From positions 1 to 21,417 of IMG/VR virus record IMGVR_UViG_3300009437_000034: 21,417 nucleotides of DNA, one strand, 5' to 3'. Below, piece by piece: positions 3,872 to 9,503 of the stretch (positions are counted from its first letter, which is position 1; each line of letters begins with the position of its first letter). Position numbers and translations under genes: made by a program. The DNA is from a virus. The notes under the pieces were generated by a model. It was not told where the DNA came from and did not search any database. It was given only the letters and a program-made list of their open reading frames with translations.

Positions 3872-4267
3872 ATGCAAAAGCTAAAGCTTCAAAACATTTG
3901 GGATGACCAAACTAAATCTTTTTTAAAAGATCAATTTCACTTAAGGGAAAGCGATAAGGTTATTAGTGGGAGAGTCGCTTTATCTAGTAAAAAAGAAGAC
4001 AAGTGGGTATCAAAAGATATGCCATTTGTTGCTTTTAAATCACAAATAACAGACTCAACAAGAATTGCATTAACTCAAAGCAATGGCAAGTTATTTGATG
4101 CTGAATTTACTATTATGGTAGATGAATTTACAGATAAAGAGGGTCAAGTTAGAAAATATTTTAAGGTTAATATACTTAATGCCTCTTTGTTAGATGCTCC
4201 TACTCAAAGCAATAGCCAGCCAGCAGTTAGCGAAGAAATCGTTGATGATGAAATTATACCTTTTTAA
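3872..4267 (+). CDS. ssb: Single-stranded DNA-binding protein
   Basis: A 131-aa protein with an OB-fold-like beta pattern through residues about 28-108 (VISGRVALSS, MPFVAFKSQI, KLFDAEFTIMVDEF, KYFKVNILNASLL). It has a short disordered glutamine/serine linker (TQSNSQPAVSEE) and ends in DDEIIPF. That acidic tip with a terminal Pro-Phe is the hallmark of bacterial and phage SSB proteins and is the site that recruits recombination and replication partners. The body is divergent from E. coli SSB, so the name rests chiefly on the tip, size and context between NinB-like and VRR-NUC genes. It is the first gene after the promoter at 3742. The start follows an A-rich leader with no Shine-Dalgarno. Confidence 0.72.
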   Translation: MQKLKLQNIWDDQTKSFLKDQFHLRESDKVISGRVALSSKKEDKWVSKDMPFVAFKSQITDSTRIALTQSNGKLFDAEFTIMVDEFTDKEGQVRKYFKVNILNASLLDAPTQSNSQPAVSEEIVDDEIIPF

Positions 4268-4292: not shown

Positions 4293-4445
4293 ATGACTAT
4301 TCCTTTTAAAGTTAAATTACTTACAGATACTGCAAAAGCTCCAGAAATGGCAAATGAAGGCGATCTTTGGGACATATTCGCAGATGGGTTTTGTGCTAAA
4401 AATCAAGATTTTAGAGATGTTATTAAAAAGAATGATTTAGAGTAG
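4293..4445 (+). CDS. 50-aa protein resembling the N-terminus of dUTPase
   Basis: ATG at 4293, 25 bases after the ssb-like gene, runs 50 codons to TAG at 4443-4445. That stop overlaps the GTG start of the next gene by one base, so the frame is very likely translated. The first 32 residues (VKLLTDTAKAPEMANEGD then WDIFADGF) resemble the opening strand and motif I region of trimeric dUTPases (VKLLxxxAKxPxxAxxGDAGFDLxA), but one residue of the GD-AG-D motif region is missing and the chain ends about 100 residues early. It may be a decayed dUTPase or an unrelated small protein. The start sits in an A-rich leader. Confidence 0.6.
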   Translation: MTIPFKVKLLTDTAKAPEMANEGDLWDIFADGFCAKNQDFRDVIKKNDLE

Positions 4446-4819
4446 TGCCATTAGGTCCAGAAGATTTACAGCATAAACAATTTGCAAATACGATAAAGCA
4501 TTATAAAGCCCTTAACAAGCTTAATTGTTGTTTTTGGTCTTATAGCCCTAGCGGCGAGAAAAGAAATGCCATAACAGGTTCTCTGTTGAAAGCTAAAGGA
4601 CTAACAAAAGGAATACCTGACTTTGAATTTAGATTGCTTAAAGATAAGATTATGCAGCATATTTATATTGAGTTTAAATATGGTAAAAACAAACAATCAC
4701 CCGAGCAAGTCTATTTTCAAAAAACTTGTGATGAATCAATTAATGATAACTATTATCTAGCTTATTCTGTAGATGATGCGATCAACATATTAATTGATAA
4801 TGGAGTGATTTTAAAATAG
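4445..4819 (+). CDS. VRR-NUC domain nuclease
   Basis: A 124-aa stand-alone VRR-NUC protein of the PD-(D/E)XK superfamily. The core is visible in order: SPSGEKRNAITGSLLKAKG (residues about 34-52), GIPDF with the metal-binding D59 (56-60), IEFKYGKNKQSPEQ with E76-x-K78 and Q88, then a C-terminal helix and strand (YYLAYSVDDAINIL). Length is normal for phage VRR-NUC proteins, which are structure-specific endonucleases acting on branched DNA during recombination or replication. The start is GTG at 4445, overlapping the upstream stop; upstream the frame has no better start. It is the last gene of the early block and overlaps the convergent late-block terminal gene by 9 bases. Confidence 0.88.
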   Translation: MPLGPEDLQHKQFANTIKHYKALNKLNCCFWSYSPSGEKRNAITGSLLKAKGLTKGIPDFEFRLLKDKIMQHIYIEFKYGKNKQSPEQVYFQKTCDESINDNYYLAYSVDDAINILIDNGVILK

Positions 4820-5222: not shown

Positions 5223-5995
5223 GAGTCTAATGTGTATTTATTGTTTAAGTAATTATATAACTGGTTTCTTTCAGTTGTATTAACATTTTTTGTATAAAAA
5301 ATTAATTCTTGCATTTCACCTTCAAAATAATTATTGAAGGAAACCGCTATTGAAGGCGTAGCTATTGTACTAAAAGTATTAAATGTTGTTGCAAAAGTTA
5401 AGCTATTATTTAAATAAACATTCATTGATGAGTTGTTCACCACTACATTATAAACTTTATTTTTATTAAGAGTGACGCTAGTCTCTGAAAAAGCAACTTG
5501 TTTACGGTCGTTAGATCCAAAGTCATCATAAATATCACCATTTGTTCCTGCTTCAATCCCCCCATAATGATTAGATAATTTAGAAGGTGATCCAAATTTC
5601 CAATGCGATCCATTACGAGCGGCGACTGCACCAGATGAAGTATCTTTAATAACAACAAATCCACTAATAGTATTTACTCCATTAAATATATCAGGGCAGC
5701 TCAAAAAATCATTAACACCATCAAATATAACTTTTTTATTTATTGAATCGTAAGTAGGTTGATTTGTAGATGTAACTTGTGTTAGATGGTTGTCGTTACC
5801 CGAAGCATCATTCCACTGACTAATCTTAGATGCGCCATTAAAAACAAATTGACTAGAATCGTTACATTTAAACCAAGCTATTAAATTAGATATAGTTTCT
5901 GGCTCTTCTGGTGGCGGTGGCGTGCCTACACCTCCTAATAAGTTCTTTGTCAAATCACTTACTAGATTATTTGTTAAATTTACAGTCAATGTCAT
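5219..5995 (-). CDS. LamG/concanavalin-like domain protein, probable virion or adhesion protein
   Basis: A 258-aa protein. A short N-terminal segment (MTLTVNLTNNLVSDLTKNLL) and a proline hinge (GTPPPPEEPE, about residues 23-32) precede a jelly-roll domain. Recognisable LamG-type elements are LIAWFKCNDSSQ, WNDASGNDNHLTQ, VIFDGVNDFLS, YNVVVNNSSMNVYLNNS and the closing EGEMQELIFYTKNVNTTERN (about residues 226-245) with its terminal YNYLNNKY helix. Such domains bind carbohydrate or protein on cell surfaces and occur in phage tail spikes and decoration proteins. No signal peptide is seen. It lies after the lysis genes and is coupled by ATGA overlaps on both sides. Virion attachment is an inference. 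Confidence 0.75.
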   Translation of the reverse strand: MTLTVNLTNNLVSDLTKNLLGGVGTPPPPEEPETISNLIAWFKCNDSSQFVFNGASKISQWNDASGNDNHLTQVTSTNQPTYDSINKKVIFDGVNDFLSCPDIFNGVNTISGFVVIKDTSSGAVAARNGSHWKFGSPSKLSNHYGGIEAGTNGDIYDDFGSNDRKQVAFSETSVTLNKNKVYNVVVNNSSMNVYLNNSLTFATTFNTFSTIATPSIAVSFNNYFEGEMQELIFYTKNVNTTERNQLYNYLNNKYTLDS

Positions 5996-6348
5996 TTTTC
6001 AATCCAATTAATTTTTAAAGGCAAATTGTAATATTTAACAACATATTCAATCCTTTTAGAATATTTGTCATAATCTTCTTTGCTGCCAATAAGTAGGCAA
6101 TGCGGCTCTTTATTTTGTTTTGCTCCATAATATAGAGCTTGCCCTAAACATTCAGCCCATTTCTTTGCGTGGTCATACTCAATGGCTTCTGCCTTAGTTA
6201 AGCAATCAACTCTTGTACTATCATCATTTCTAACCTCTGTAGCGCCATTTACGAGATCGCAATGTATATCTTGATAATACCTTTCTGTCTTTGCTTGCGC
6301 GTCCTTAAAAAAGAAAAAGCTAATAAGTATTATTAATGATTTTTTCAT
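5992..6348 (-). CDS. Secreted four-cysteine protein with PD-(D/E)XK-like residues
   Basis: A 118-aa protein with a clear signal peptide: KK at the N-terminus, a hydrophobic core through residue 14, and AQA with cleavage expected after residue 19. The mature part has four cysteines (30, 49, 67, 84), enough for two disulfides. TEV (37-39), TRVDCLT (45-51), AIEYDHAKKWAE (55-66) and GQALYY (69-74) match a phage/bacterial hypothetical family I know as TEV...TRVDCLT...AIExDxAxKWAExxGQALYY. The D48, E57, K62/63 and Q70-x-x-Y73 spacing resembles the PD-(D/E)XK nuclease fold, including its Q-x-x-x-Y helix. Nuclease activity is an inference. The start overlaps the 25-aa peptide stop (ATGA) and follows AAAAAGGATTAT, a partial Shine-Dalgarno. 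Confidence 0.75.
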   Translation of the reverse strand: MKKSLIILISFFFFKDAQAKTERYYQDIHCDLVNGATEVRNDDSTRVDCLTKAEAIEYDHAKKWAECLGQALYYGAKQNKEPHCLLIGSKEDYDKYSKRIEYVVKYYNLPLKINWIEK

Positions 6349-6422
6349 ATAATCCTTTTTGTAAATATCTTTCTTATTTTCTTTGGCAAAGACTTAATAA
6401 ATCTTTTTAATCTTGTAAACAT
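6345..6422 (-). CDS. 25-aa strongly cationic amphipathic peptide (candidate lysis-associated peptide)
   Basis: ATG at 6422 opens a 25-codon frame ending in TGA within the ATGA that starts the secreted 118-aa gene, a coupling common in this genome. Ten of the 25 residues are lysine or arginine (positions 4, 6, 7, 10, 14, 15, 17, 18, 22, 23) and none is acidic. The rest are mostly I, F and L. A proline at 13 divides two short amphipathic helices. The gene sits directly after the endolysin. The composition is that of a membrane-active peptide, comparable in concept to the cationic phage peptide disruptin that attacks the outer membrane. No family match is claimed. A nucleic-acid-binding role is an alternative. 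Confidence 0.55.
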   Translation of the reverse strand: MFTRLKRFIKSLPKKIRKIFTKRII

Positions 6423-6484: not shown

Positions 6485-7084
6485 TTAAATACTTATTTTT
6501 CTAGTTACCCAGTTGCCTTTTATTTTTTCAGCAAATTTAACCTCATTTCTATTATCGGCTTCATGTTCGCTAAAGCCTAGATGCAATATATTATTTTCAA
6601 TTAATAATTGGTCAAATTGAATTCTAGATTGAATAACTAACCTTGCTAGTTTATCAGGGGCTAATTCCATACCCAATATTGTAGCTTTAATATCAGCGGC
6701 TAAACCTGCCATGTGGCGGCTAGTAGGAGAGCCACCGACTAATAGATTAACCTGCCAATTTCTGTAGCCACTTGTTATTGTAATTACAACATTACTAGTA
6801 TTAAATTTTTCTTGTAGAAATAGATGCAGGTGCTGCAATTTATCGGAGGTTTTAAGCAAATTTTCTAATATTCTTTGCTCGGTCGGTCTATTATTTATAC
6901 CTTGTTCTCTAGCTGTTCTTGAAGCGTAAAACTCGGTATAGTGAAAATTAGCATTTCCAAGTTCTTCAATTTCAATGAGGCTGGCACTATTTTGCTGATA
7001 CCTTTCATTATTGCCATATATGTTCTTGCTTGGCTTTTTCTTTTTGCAAAAAATAGATAGTAGGTTTTTAATAAATTTCATCAT
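6485..7084 (-). CDS. Endolysin, M15-family zinc peptidase
   Basis: A 199-aa protein whose C-terminal 150 residues form a complete Peptidase_M15_3 domain. Seen in order are FYASRTAREQGINNRP (residues 52-67), TSGYR (104-108), GGSPTSRHMAGLAADI with zinc ligands H124 and D131, FDQLLIENNILHLGF with catalytic-type E163 and third ligand H168. Such enzymes cut D-Ala or stem-peptide bonds of peptidoglycan and act in the periplasm. The first 20 residues are a short hydrophobic patch plus a KKKK cluster, not a standard signal peptide, so export would need a holin. Two consecutive ATGs (7084, 7081) leave the exact start open. The gene lies between the spanin pair and the cationic peptide gene. Confidence 0.88.
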   Translation of the reverse strand: MMKFIKNLLSIFCKKKKPSKNIYGNNERYQQNSASLIEIEELGNANFHYTEFYASRTAREQGINNRPTEQRILENLLKTSDKLQHLHLFLQEKFNTSNVVITITSGYRNWQVNLLVGGSPTSRHMAGLAADIKATILGMELAPDKLARLVIQSRIQFDQLLIENNILHLGFSEHEADNRNEVKFAEKIKGNWVTRKISI

Positions 7085-7145: not shown

Positions 7146-7460
7146 TCAATGTCGTCGACTTAATTTATCACATTTTTCAATATATCGCTGCTTGTTTCGA
7201 TCAATTAATTTGCTAAAATATAAAATTAATTTTTCTTCATTTGTAAATTCTTGATTATTTTTTTCTTTTCTTAAAATTTCTTCTTCAAGAATAAAGGCAT
7301 ATTCTTCTAAAGATTTATCCATATAATCTTGCGGGTAAATATAAGTGCTGCAAAAATCACTTTCTATCTTTATTAGTTTTTTGCTCTCGCAAGATGATGC
7401 TAAACATAGAACTAGACTTAGTATTGCTATGCTTTTTATCAGCTTTATTAATGCTTTCAT
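7146..7460 (-). CDS. Outer-membrane spanin lipoprotein (Rz1-like)
   Basis: A 104-aa protein with a lipoprotein signal: a basic N-terminus, hydrophobic core (residues 5-20) and ASSC with the lipidated cysteine at 24. The mature part has DFCSTYIYPQDYMDKS (35-50), which resembles the FC-x-x-Y-P-I-x-x-S segment of Rz1-like proteins of phages from alpha- and gammaproteobacteria. It starts inside the inner-spanin gene in another frame (104 bases shared), the classical overlapped spanin arrangement. Together they would bridge the inner and outer membrane and fuse them at the last step of lysis. It is longer and less proline-rich than lambda Rz1, so the call rests on the lipobox, order and overlap. 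Confidence 0.75.
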   Translation of the reverse strand: MKALIKLIKSIAILSLVLCLASSCESKKLIKIESDFCSTYIYPQDYMDKSLEEYAFILEEEILRKEKNNQEFTNEEKLILYFSKLIDRNKQRYIEKCDKLSRRH

Positions 7461-7596
7461 TATGCTTAATTTTAAATTCTTTAGTTTCTTTTTTTAGATT
7501 ATCAATAACCTTTCTTTTGCCTTTGCTTTCGCCACTTTTAAAAATAACTAGAAAGGATAAAAGTATTGATCCAGCAACTGCAAATATTTCAAACAT
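7357..7596 (-). CDS. Inner-membrane spanin (Rz-like)
   Basis: A 79-aa protein with one N-terminal transmembrane helix (about residues 2-19, FEIFAVAGSILLSFLVIF) followed by a long charged, lysine/glutamate-rich helix (VIDNLKKETKEFKIKHNESI) suited to a periplasmic coiled coil. It has no conserved catalytic residues. The second half overlaps the start of the lipoprotein gene in a different frame, which with the topology identifies it as the i-spanin. It is shorter than lambda Rz. The ATG follows an AAAAAACA leader and overlaps the upstream 61-aa gene stop by 8 bases (ATGTTTGA). Confidence 0.72.
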   Translation of the reverse strand: MFEIFAVAGSILLSFLVIFKSGESKGKRKVIDNLKKETKEFKIKHNESINKADKKHSNTKSSSMFSIILREQKTNKDRK

Positions 7597-7774: not shown

Positions 7775-8458
7775 TTATTTTTTGCAAAAAAGTTTAATAC
7801 TGCTTGCATAATGCAAAGCGAGTTGAAATACATTATATGGTGTCATTTCTTTAGCTACTCCATTTTCAATAATAGAAGTATCATGACCAAGTTTTTCTAA
7901 AAGTAGTGCAGTTTTAAAACTACAAAATATCTTTTCTAAACTAATATCAAGTATTTCTTCATTATCTTTGCTATCTACTTTGAAGTTTAGTTTTTTAGTT
8001 ATATCGTTAATAGTGTCGCTATCTAGTGCTGACATTGCTGCTGACATCTCACCATAAGGCAAGCCGTGTATTTTTTTTGTAAAATCTTTAATAATTTTTT
8101 TATCAAATTTATCAAAAGTGGCTATAATAACTCTGCCATCATAGTGCTTGACAAAATCCAATAAATCATTAATCTCAACACCACTAAGCATAGCGTCTAC
8201 TGTTTCAGCTTTATAAATACTTGTTGAGTCTATTTCATCAAAGCCTTTAATATAACCAACATGATCTATTGCTAAATCGCCGTTGATCTTATGGACTAAT
8301 CTTGTGAGCGAAAATAACGGATTAAGTAGGTTTTTAAAATTGAGGTTTTTAATATAAAACAAAGCGTGAAATTTATCATGCTCTAGCTTGTTTATTTCTT
8401 CCTGGATATTCTCTAGCCTGTGTATACGCTCTAACTGTTTAATATTTATTTTTTTCAT
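7775..8458 (-). CDS. Hypothetical late protein, 227 aa
   Basis: A soluble, lysine- and aspartate-rich protein that I do not recognise. The N-terminus is an amphipathic helix (INIKQLERIHRLENIQEEIN); the middle has an alpha/beta look (DGRVIIATFDKFDKKIIKDF, about residues 108-127) and the end is helical with FCSFKTALLLEKLGH and a hydrophobic terminal helix. There is no signal peptide or membrane span. It overlaps the upstream 120-aa membrane protein by 20 bases and abuts the 61-aa membrane protein, so the three are transcribed and probably translated together. A cytoplasmic partner or regulator of the two membrane proteins is one reading. Confidence 0.65.
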   Translation of the reverse strand: MKKINIKQLERIHRLENIQEEINKLEHDKFHALFYIKNLNFKNLLNPLFSLTRLVHKINGDLAIDHVGYIKGFDEIDSTSIYKAETVDAMLSGVEINDLLDFVKHYDGRVIIATFDKFDKKIIKDFTKKIHGLPYGEMSAAMSALDSDTINDITKKLNFKVDSKDNEEILDISLEKIFCSFKTALLLEKLGHDTSIIENGVAKEMTPYNVFQLALHYASSIKLFCKK

Positions 8459-8801
8459 TTTTATCTTTTTCTAGTAATTTAAATAATCTATCTAAAGGCT
8501 CTTGCATATTTCTACTGGCGTGCCTAGCAACACTTAGCTTCAAATCATCTTCCATCTGATCTAATCTAGTATTAAAATAATCTTTTAATTCCTCTTTGAT
8601 AGCTTGCCGCTGTTTAGTCTCTTTACAATCTATTTTGGTAATTCTTTTTTCTAAATCGTCAAATCTTTCTCCAATTCTTGACTTATAAACAGTAACACCC
8701 AATTTTGAAATAAGTGTAACCATGCCTAAAAATAAGAAAGCAACAAAACCATAGATAATTGAAGAGATATAATCTAACATTAGTTTAAAAGGTATTTGCA
8801 T
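8439..8801 (-). CDS. Membrane-anchored coiled-coil protein, 120 aa
   Basis: Residues about 8-36 (LDYISSIIYGFVAFLFLGMV and following) form a long membrane helix, possibly a tight hairpin. They are followed by a charged heptad-rich region (RFDDLEKRITKI, EELKDYFNTRLDQMEDDLKL, about 45-90) and a basic tail. This topology is seen in small phage holin-like or antiholin-like proteins and in membrane-anchored accessory proteins; no conserved motif settles it. It begins 33 bases after the 222-aa gene and its end overlaps the 227-aa gene by 20 bases. It lies at the boundary between tail and lysis genes. Confidence 0.6.
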   Translation of the reverse strand: MQIPFKLMLDYISSIIYGFVAFLFLGMVTLISKLGVTVYKSRIGERFDDLEKRITKIDCKETKQRQAIKEELKDYFNTRLDQMEDDLKLSVARHASRNMQEPLDRLFKLLEKDKNEKNKY

Positions 8802-8834: not shown

Positions 8835-9503
8835 TCAAGATAAATCAAGCCTTGTGCCATTTTCATTTTTAGGAATTTCGATTGATTCAATTTCTGCAAC
8901 TGTTGTTGAGTTATTAATAGATTCTTTAATGCTTCTAAAATAAGTGCTATTGATAGCTAATCTATACAACACATGACCCTCTAAAGCCCTTGCTAATTTA
9001 ATATCAAGCCTAACTTGTCCTTTGCGTAAAAAATTACCAGCACTATCTATAATATCACAAAAATAGTCTATAAACTCTTGCAACTTATCTGTATTACTCT
9101 CAAGAGTTCTTACTCTATTCTCAAAATTAGCATTTTTAATATAGTTAATAATATCAACAATATTTCTGCCATTAACTTGCCTAAATTGTAAATCTACTTG
9201 AAAGCTTACACCGCCTGCCTCTGTTTGCAAAACACCATCAATTACTTCATAAGCTGGAAATAAATCATCGTGATAATGATTATAATTACTTGAATCTAAA
9301 TCATCTTTTATACCCTCAAGCTCTTTTAGCTTTTTTTCTTTAGCTTGCGTTAGCTCCCAAGTGTCAATTAAAGGCTTCTCATCAGCTTTTATATTCCCAG
9401 TTGTGCGGTCAATGCAATCTACCCAATCATTTATTCTAAAAGTGCCGCTTAGGTTAGTTTCTTTTTTAATTTCGCCTGTTACTGTATTTCTTGAAATATC
9501 CAT
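8835..9503 (-). CDS. Hypothetical late protein downstream of tail fibre, 222 aa
   Basis: A soluble protein following the second tail-fibre gene, where tail-fibre assembly chaperones often lie. It starts with a beta-like region (MDISRNTVTGEIKKETNLSG). A helical stretch (WELTQAKEKKLKELEGI, about residues 49-65) and a segment with DLFPAYEVIDGVLQTEAGGV recall the DUF4376-type fold of fibre accessory proteins. The last hundred residues are helical and charged. The DUF4376 idea is a guess from pattern and position; I could not find a decisive motif. No ribosome-binding site precedes the ATG. Confidence 0.6.
   Translation of the reverse strand: MDISRNTVTGEIKKETNLSGTFRINDWVDCIDRTTGNIKADEKPLIDTWELTQAKEKKLKELEGIKDDLDSSNYNHYHDDLFPAYEVIDGVLQTEAGGVSFQVDLQFRQVNGRNIVDIINYIKNANFENRVRTLESNTDKLQEFIDYFCDIIDSAGNFLRKGQVRLDIKLARALEGHVLYRLAINSTYFRSIKESINNSTTVAEIESIEIPKNENGTRLDLS

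Follow-up and report, generated by a model that had tools for sequence, protein, structure and literature searches.

A small cationic peptide gene in a phage lysis cassette that also holds spanin-like genes, and its counterpart in a second phage lineage

A gene for a cationic, amphipathic peptide of 25 aa was found between the endolysin gene and the gene for a secreted protein in the window (the whole 21,417-base virus contig analysed, 32% G+C), and another lineage holds a counterpart that has kept its position and properties, which makes this very probably a genuine, translationally coupled small gene of the lysis cassette. The second lineage is represented by contigs 3300026187_000004 and 3300009124_000103 (L023/L024), which were found via a search with the 118-aa secreted protein of the window, the match being confined to the signal-peptide region. 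These contigs are identical in the peptide gene and were counted as one lineage. The minus-strand gene order in the window is 120-aa gene, 227-aa gene, putative holin, Rz-like, Rz1-like, M15 endolysin, peptide, secreted protein (118 aa) and structural protein (258 aa), and the features relevant here are the following.

8439–8801, minus strand: membrane and coiled-coil gene, 120 aa; 54% identical to a 116-aa gene of L023
7775–8458, minus strand: conserved cassette gene, 227 aa; 40% identical to a 231-aa gene of L023
7589–7774, minus strand: putative holin, 61 aa, containing a hydrophobic segment; 40% identical to the L023 gene (62 aa) that occupies this slot
7357–7596, minus strand: putative i-spanin, Rz-type, 79 aa; weak match (0.023) to phrog_1026 Rz-like spanin
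7146–7460, minus strand: putative o-spanin, Rz1-type lipoprotein, 104 aa; signal and lipobox-like LASSC
6485–7084, minus strand: endolysin, Peptidase_M15_3 (PF08291, 5.9e-13; phrog_894 endolysin, 4.2e-19)
6345–6422, minus strand: peptide gene, 25 aa, MFTRLKRFIKSLPKKIRKIFTKRII; from the ORF reading and the counterpart at L023:4912–5004
6345–6348, minus strand: ATGA overlap of peptide stop and secreted-gene start, the geometry of translational coupling
5992–6348, minus strand: secreted protein, 118 aa; signal-peptide-like N-terminus MKKSLIILISFFFFKDAQA
L023:4912–5004: counterpart peptide, 30 aa, MRKIINCFKNLSKKVKRELKKIKLCLSKKI, directly after the endolysin; 12 K/R and 1 D/E

The peptide frame runs on the minus strand from an ATG at 6422–6420 to a TGA at 6347–6345 and, as claimed in the first-pass annotation, its 25 codons include ten for K/R and none for D/E, with a proline (P13) at the centre, giving a net charge of +10. 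Mean hydrophobicity is -0.24, and nowhere in the core are charged residues more than four positions apart. No hydrophobic stretch of sufficient length for a transmembrane segment and no Cys or lipobox was found in the 25 residues, and a signal peptide is absent. The amphipathic character that had been noticed was confirmed by a hydrophobic moment of 0.51 with its peak at 100 degrees, the expectation for an alpha-helix; the moment of the best 18-residue window has a shuffle p of 0.009, and of 0.003 for MRKIINCFKNLSKKVKRELKKIKLCLSKKI.

The ATGA reported to be shared by the peptide stop and the secreted gene is present, the ATG of the latter beginning at 6348, and the AAGGA site for the secreted-protein gene sits inside the last peptide codons. 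On the endolysin side, 62 untranslated bases separate the endolysin stop (6485) from the peptide ATG (6422) in a gap of 140 nt overall, and the earlier description of a frame lying exactly between the two genes therefore holds on the secreted side only. A scan of all genes of the window phage (32% G+C) found that most are without a Shine-Dalgarno site, thus the absence of one before the peptide frame is no strike against its translation. The scarcity of such sites in this AT-rich phage may hint at a host such as a member of the Bacteroidota.

The tail module of the window phage was read as that of a myovirus from a baseplate J-like gene, with Bdellovibrio phage phi1422 as the best named match (38% identity). 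In the lysis cassette, the holin role of the 61-aa gene is putative and was assigned from position and hydrophobicity. The putative i-spanin has one N-terminal transmembrane segment followed by a cationic coil, and its copy in L023 matches phrog_8821 (3.2e-4) and phrog_1026 (1.1e-3). The gene for the putative o-spanin partly overlaps that of the i-spanin, and its product aligns with the Rz1 proteins of L023 and of the two relatives L006 and L008, the L023 copy matching phrog_1275 Rz-like spanin (8.6e-12). The claim that this phage encodes spanins was thus borne out at the level of sequence by a probable Rz/Rz1-type pair at 7146–7596, and the same appears to hold for L023. The endolysin of the window is 43–44% identical to that of L023/L024, and both M15 endolysins carry a cationic N-terminal extension of ~40 aa before the catalytic domain (window 6950–7084, minus strand, FIKNLLSIFCKKKK; L023:4308–4430), which is possibly a membrane-surface anchor.

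In the second lineage, the frame encoding MRKIINCFKNLSKKVKRELKKIKLCLSKKI and the end of the endolysin gene share 8 nt, and 2 nt lie between the peptide stop and an ATG of the secreted gene. The hydrophobic moment of this peptide is 0.61, again with the peak at 100 degrees, and it was predicted as one continuous helix with a pLDDT of 96, which is weak evidence as the prediction was made from a single sequence. Both lineages share the cassette order putative holin, Rz, Rz1, M15 endolysin, peptide and secreted gene, and the flanking cassette genes are only 40–54% identical, indicating that the slot of the peptide has been kept over a long divergence.

Whether such a frame could have arisen by chance was assessed by shuffling the 140-nt gap 60,000 times with dinucleotide content preserved. 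A chance frame in an A-rich gap, untranslated, has in its favour that AAA and AAG codons are cheap at 32% G+C, and some frame of at least 20 aa was present in 17% of the shuffles. However, a frame with a net charge of at least +10 appeared in only 0.08%, and none of the 60,000 shuffles of the window gap combined that charge with a helical moment of at least 0.5, in agreement with the earlier claim that a gap-filling chance frame would rarely be so biased; both charge and moment were reached in 0.018% of shuffles of the L023 gap. Among 1,055 frames of 20–35 aa from ten phage sequences, six reached the charge density of MFTRLKRFIKSLPKKIRKIFTKRII, and these include the window peptide itself and its counterpart in the relative. 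In a subset comprising 722 short background frames, 0.3% had a moment as high as that of the window peptide and none had one as high as that of the counterpart. The features tested were picked after the peptide had been seen, which makes these chance figures somewhat optimistic. A like frame also occupies the same slot in a distant lineage, and a chance product is very unlikely.

Position, size, charge and amphipathicity are conserved between the two carriers, and homology at the level of residues is marginal. The residue match of MFTRLKRFIKSLPKKIRKIFTKRII and MRKIINCFKNLSKKVKRELKKIKLCLSKKI has a shuffle p of 0.03 and a pairwise E of 0.02, and offsets of -1, 3, 6, 10 and 14 all score well, so that the register is not unique, as expected from the helix periodicity common to both peptides. 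When all frame pairs of the two stretches were compared, this pair scored 34 and the other eight 13–27. Nucleotide identity at offset 6 was 0.58, 0.42 and 0.29 for codon positions 1, 2 and 3, an order that matches the expectation for coding sequence but is weak at 24 codons. It is likely that the two peptides derive from one ancestral peptide gene, and this is argued from synteny, the residues being no proof.

The first-pass annotation had pointed to relatives for conservation of the frame, and it was found in those with the same endolysin type (L023/L024) and not in those with another. Relatives L006 and L008, whose baseplate J proteins are 63–65% identical to that of the window, have other endolysin types and cassettes without the peptide. 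The peptide therefore tracks the arrangement of M15 endolysin and secreted protein, not the tail module. The near-identical contigs L002–L005 either stop short of the lysis region or do not match it, and are uninformative on the peptide. No match to the window baseplate protein was found in the L023/L024 phage, the structural genes of which look podovirus-like by eye. As the tail genes of the two carriers are seemingly unrelated, the lysis cassette, including the peptide, appears from sequence comparison to have moved between tail types. In both phages the lysis module is also followed, as seen by eye, by a VRR-NUC-like gene and by a small gene, alike in the two, that is possibly an SSB gene (window 4445–4819 and 3872–4267, plus strand; L042:8099–8596 and 8917–9324, minus strand), suggesting that the common block may exceed the lysis cassette.

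Two independent lineages were found to carry the peptide, the window and L023/L024. No peptide-like sequence was found in 50,697 phage records, no usable match to the peptide in Pfam, PHROGs, NCBIfam or the phage collection, no known phage that resembles the region at the DNA level, and no carriers in scans of bacterial genomes. Scans for further carriers with the endolysin, the 227-aa and 120-aa genes and the signal-peptide DNA returned the two known contigs plus distant M15 enzymes. A PDB match of the peptide to the CLEC4M neck (E 5e-4) was rejected as an artefact, being a sum over six repeats that contribute about 3 bits or less each. Very basic frames of 38–45 aa, such as MARKAKGFGVDNYHKRKRVKRKGRVSKSPNKRYTKKKRIGQGKPS, were observed shortly downstream of the endolysin gene at distant M15 loci (L032:5650–5787, L033:5644–5781 and L036:1040–1156), and at least two of the three are alike. 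These frames were considered as relatives of the peptide and judged unrelated by eye, as they are 38–45 aa and unlike it in sequence.

Homologues of the 118-aa protein family occur in Salicola, Nitratiruptor, Rhizobium and other phages, and in the alignment E38, D48, E57, D59, K63, G69, Q70 and Y74 are invariant (pattern E..D..ExDxxxK..GQxxxY). From this pattern, the protein is possibly a variant nuclease of the PD-(D/E)XK kind, in which the lysine is displaced and a QxxxY motif like that of RecB is present. A structural model reached a pLDDT of only 54, and no significant fold match to it was found. In both carriers a Sec-secreted protein is encoded immediately downstream of the peptide, in L023 an SNase (thermonuclease; PF00565, 8e-14). 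The signal peptides of the window and L023 proteins are nearly the same (FFFFKDAQAK) and the mature proteins unrelated (slots at window 5992–6348, minus strand, L023:5007–5420 and L022:4980–5408), as if mature domains had been swapped behind a fixed secretion signal. The gene for the L022 relative of the 118-aa protein is preceded by no such peptide gene.

The first-pass annotation had also suggested a disruptin-like addition to a spanin-encoding phage. The peptide resembles the disruptin of phage phiKT in that both are short, phage-encoded and cationic, have an amphipathic segment and are encoded directly after the endolysin gene. However, gp28 of phiKT, which we take to be this disruptin, is of 56 aa with 11 K/R and 4 D/E, whereas the window peptide is of 25 aa with 10 K/R and 0 D/E. 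A tblastn search of the phage collection, including phiKT, found no match even at E 10, at the limited sensitivity of so short a query. For the disruptin of Escherichia phage phiKT, PMC12819732 and PMC9239132 cite Holt et al. 2022, the former naming the phage and the peptide type. Disruptins were found by examining phages without identifiable spanins, and their diversity complicates their prediction (PMC12819732). In contrast, the window and L023 have a spanin-like pair. The suggestion thus stands for charge, helix and gene position and falls for sequence match to gp28 and for the spanin-free context. By analogy, the peptide may be disruptin-like in mode and is not demonstrably a disruptin; as sequence similarity is lacking and spanin-like genes are present, it is better filed as a variant, candidate phage-encoded cationic lysis peptide. 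Rz/Rz1 spanins of the lambda type serve the outer-membrane step, and the pair lies in the same cassette as the peptide, which, unlike spanins, is without a transmembrane anchor or lipobox and is an extra gene beside them. LL-37 has been named as a comparison for disruptin (PMC12819732). The peptide shares with peptides of that type a high charge (net +10), an amphipathic helix and a length of 25–30 residues, but is a predicted intracellular phage product.

The reading tentatively preferred is that the peptide is a translationally coupled, membrane-active lysis accessory that acts at the outer membrane beside the Rz/Rz1 spanins. The peptide would be translated from one message together with the endolysin and the secreted protein that follows, and would remain cytoplasmic or lie on the inner leaflet until holin lesions form in the inner membrane. 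It would then leave with the endolysin through these lesions, bind anionic lipid and LPS, and assist the spanins by destabilising the outer membrane, and the weakened outer membrane would help to release virions and the periplasmic protein of the neighbouring gene. The first-pass annotation was largely right about the gene, and function is a separate matter. What the sequences show is the frame, how improbable it is by chance, its conserved position and physicochemistry in the second lineage, the geometry of coupling and the spanin-like genes of the cassette; that the frame is translated, and from one message with its neighbours, that the peptide binds membranes and targets the outer one, and when it acts, is inferred. 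Against this reading, an Rz/Rz1 pair ought to be enough for the outer membrane, P13 may kink the helix, the two peptides are only marginally homologous in their residues, and the peptide is present in two independent lineages only and absent from the cassettes of L006 and L008.

Action at the inner membrane instead, as a holin helper, antiholin or timing modulator on the cytoplasmic leaflet with the spanins handling the outer membrane, is credible though rather unlikely. Binding to anionic membrane surfaces is common among cationic amphipathic helices of this size, and the peptide is without a signal peptide, spanins are present in the cassette and both endolysins also begin with a cationic stretch. 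However, the gene lies after the endolysin gene and not beside the holin, and the peptide has no transmembrane segment, in contrast to known holins and most antiholins. It is quite unlikely that the frame is only a leader whose translation tunes expression of the secreted gene after it, the peptide itself being unimportant. The ATGA overlap, the AAGGA within the last codons and the L023 peptide stop 2 nt ahead of the next start agree with such coupling, but for a mere leader there is no need for two lineages to have retained the charge and the amphipathic helix, and RNA structure in the gap was not in excess of chance (z -0.73). Binding of nucleic acid alongside the following secreted nuclease, for example in coating or compacting DNA, could be proposed from the high K/R density and from the next gene, an SNase gene in the L023 lineage and possibly a nuclease gene in the window, but is highly improbable, as a regular amphipathic periodicity of 100 degrees speaks for a membrane surface and the L022 relative of the 118-aa protein has no preceding peptide.

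If the peptide is membrane-active, disruptin-like peptides can accompany spanins and not only replace missing ones. A broader proposal, that a conserved class of cassettes has, in addition to holin, endolysin and Rz/Rz1 spanins, a cationic helical peptide of its own in translational coupling with a secreted nuclease, the two being exchanged as one unit between tail types, is unlikely; were it true, outer-membrane disruption and the destruction of released (or superinfecting-phage) DNA would be delivered together. Genes this small escape gene callers and such peptides could therefore be widespread, and frames in the gaps after endolysin genes can be screened by charge, helix moment and positional conservation. 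Against the difficulty of disruptin prediction noted in PMC12819732, the peptide provides a concrete second sequence type to test.
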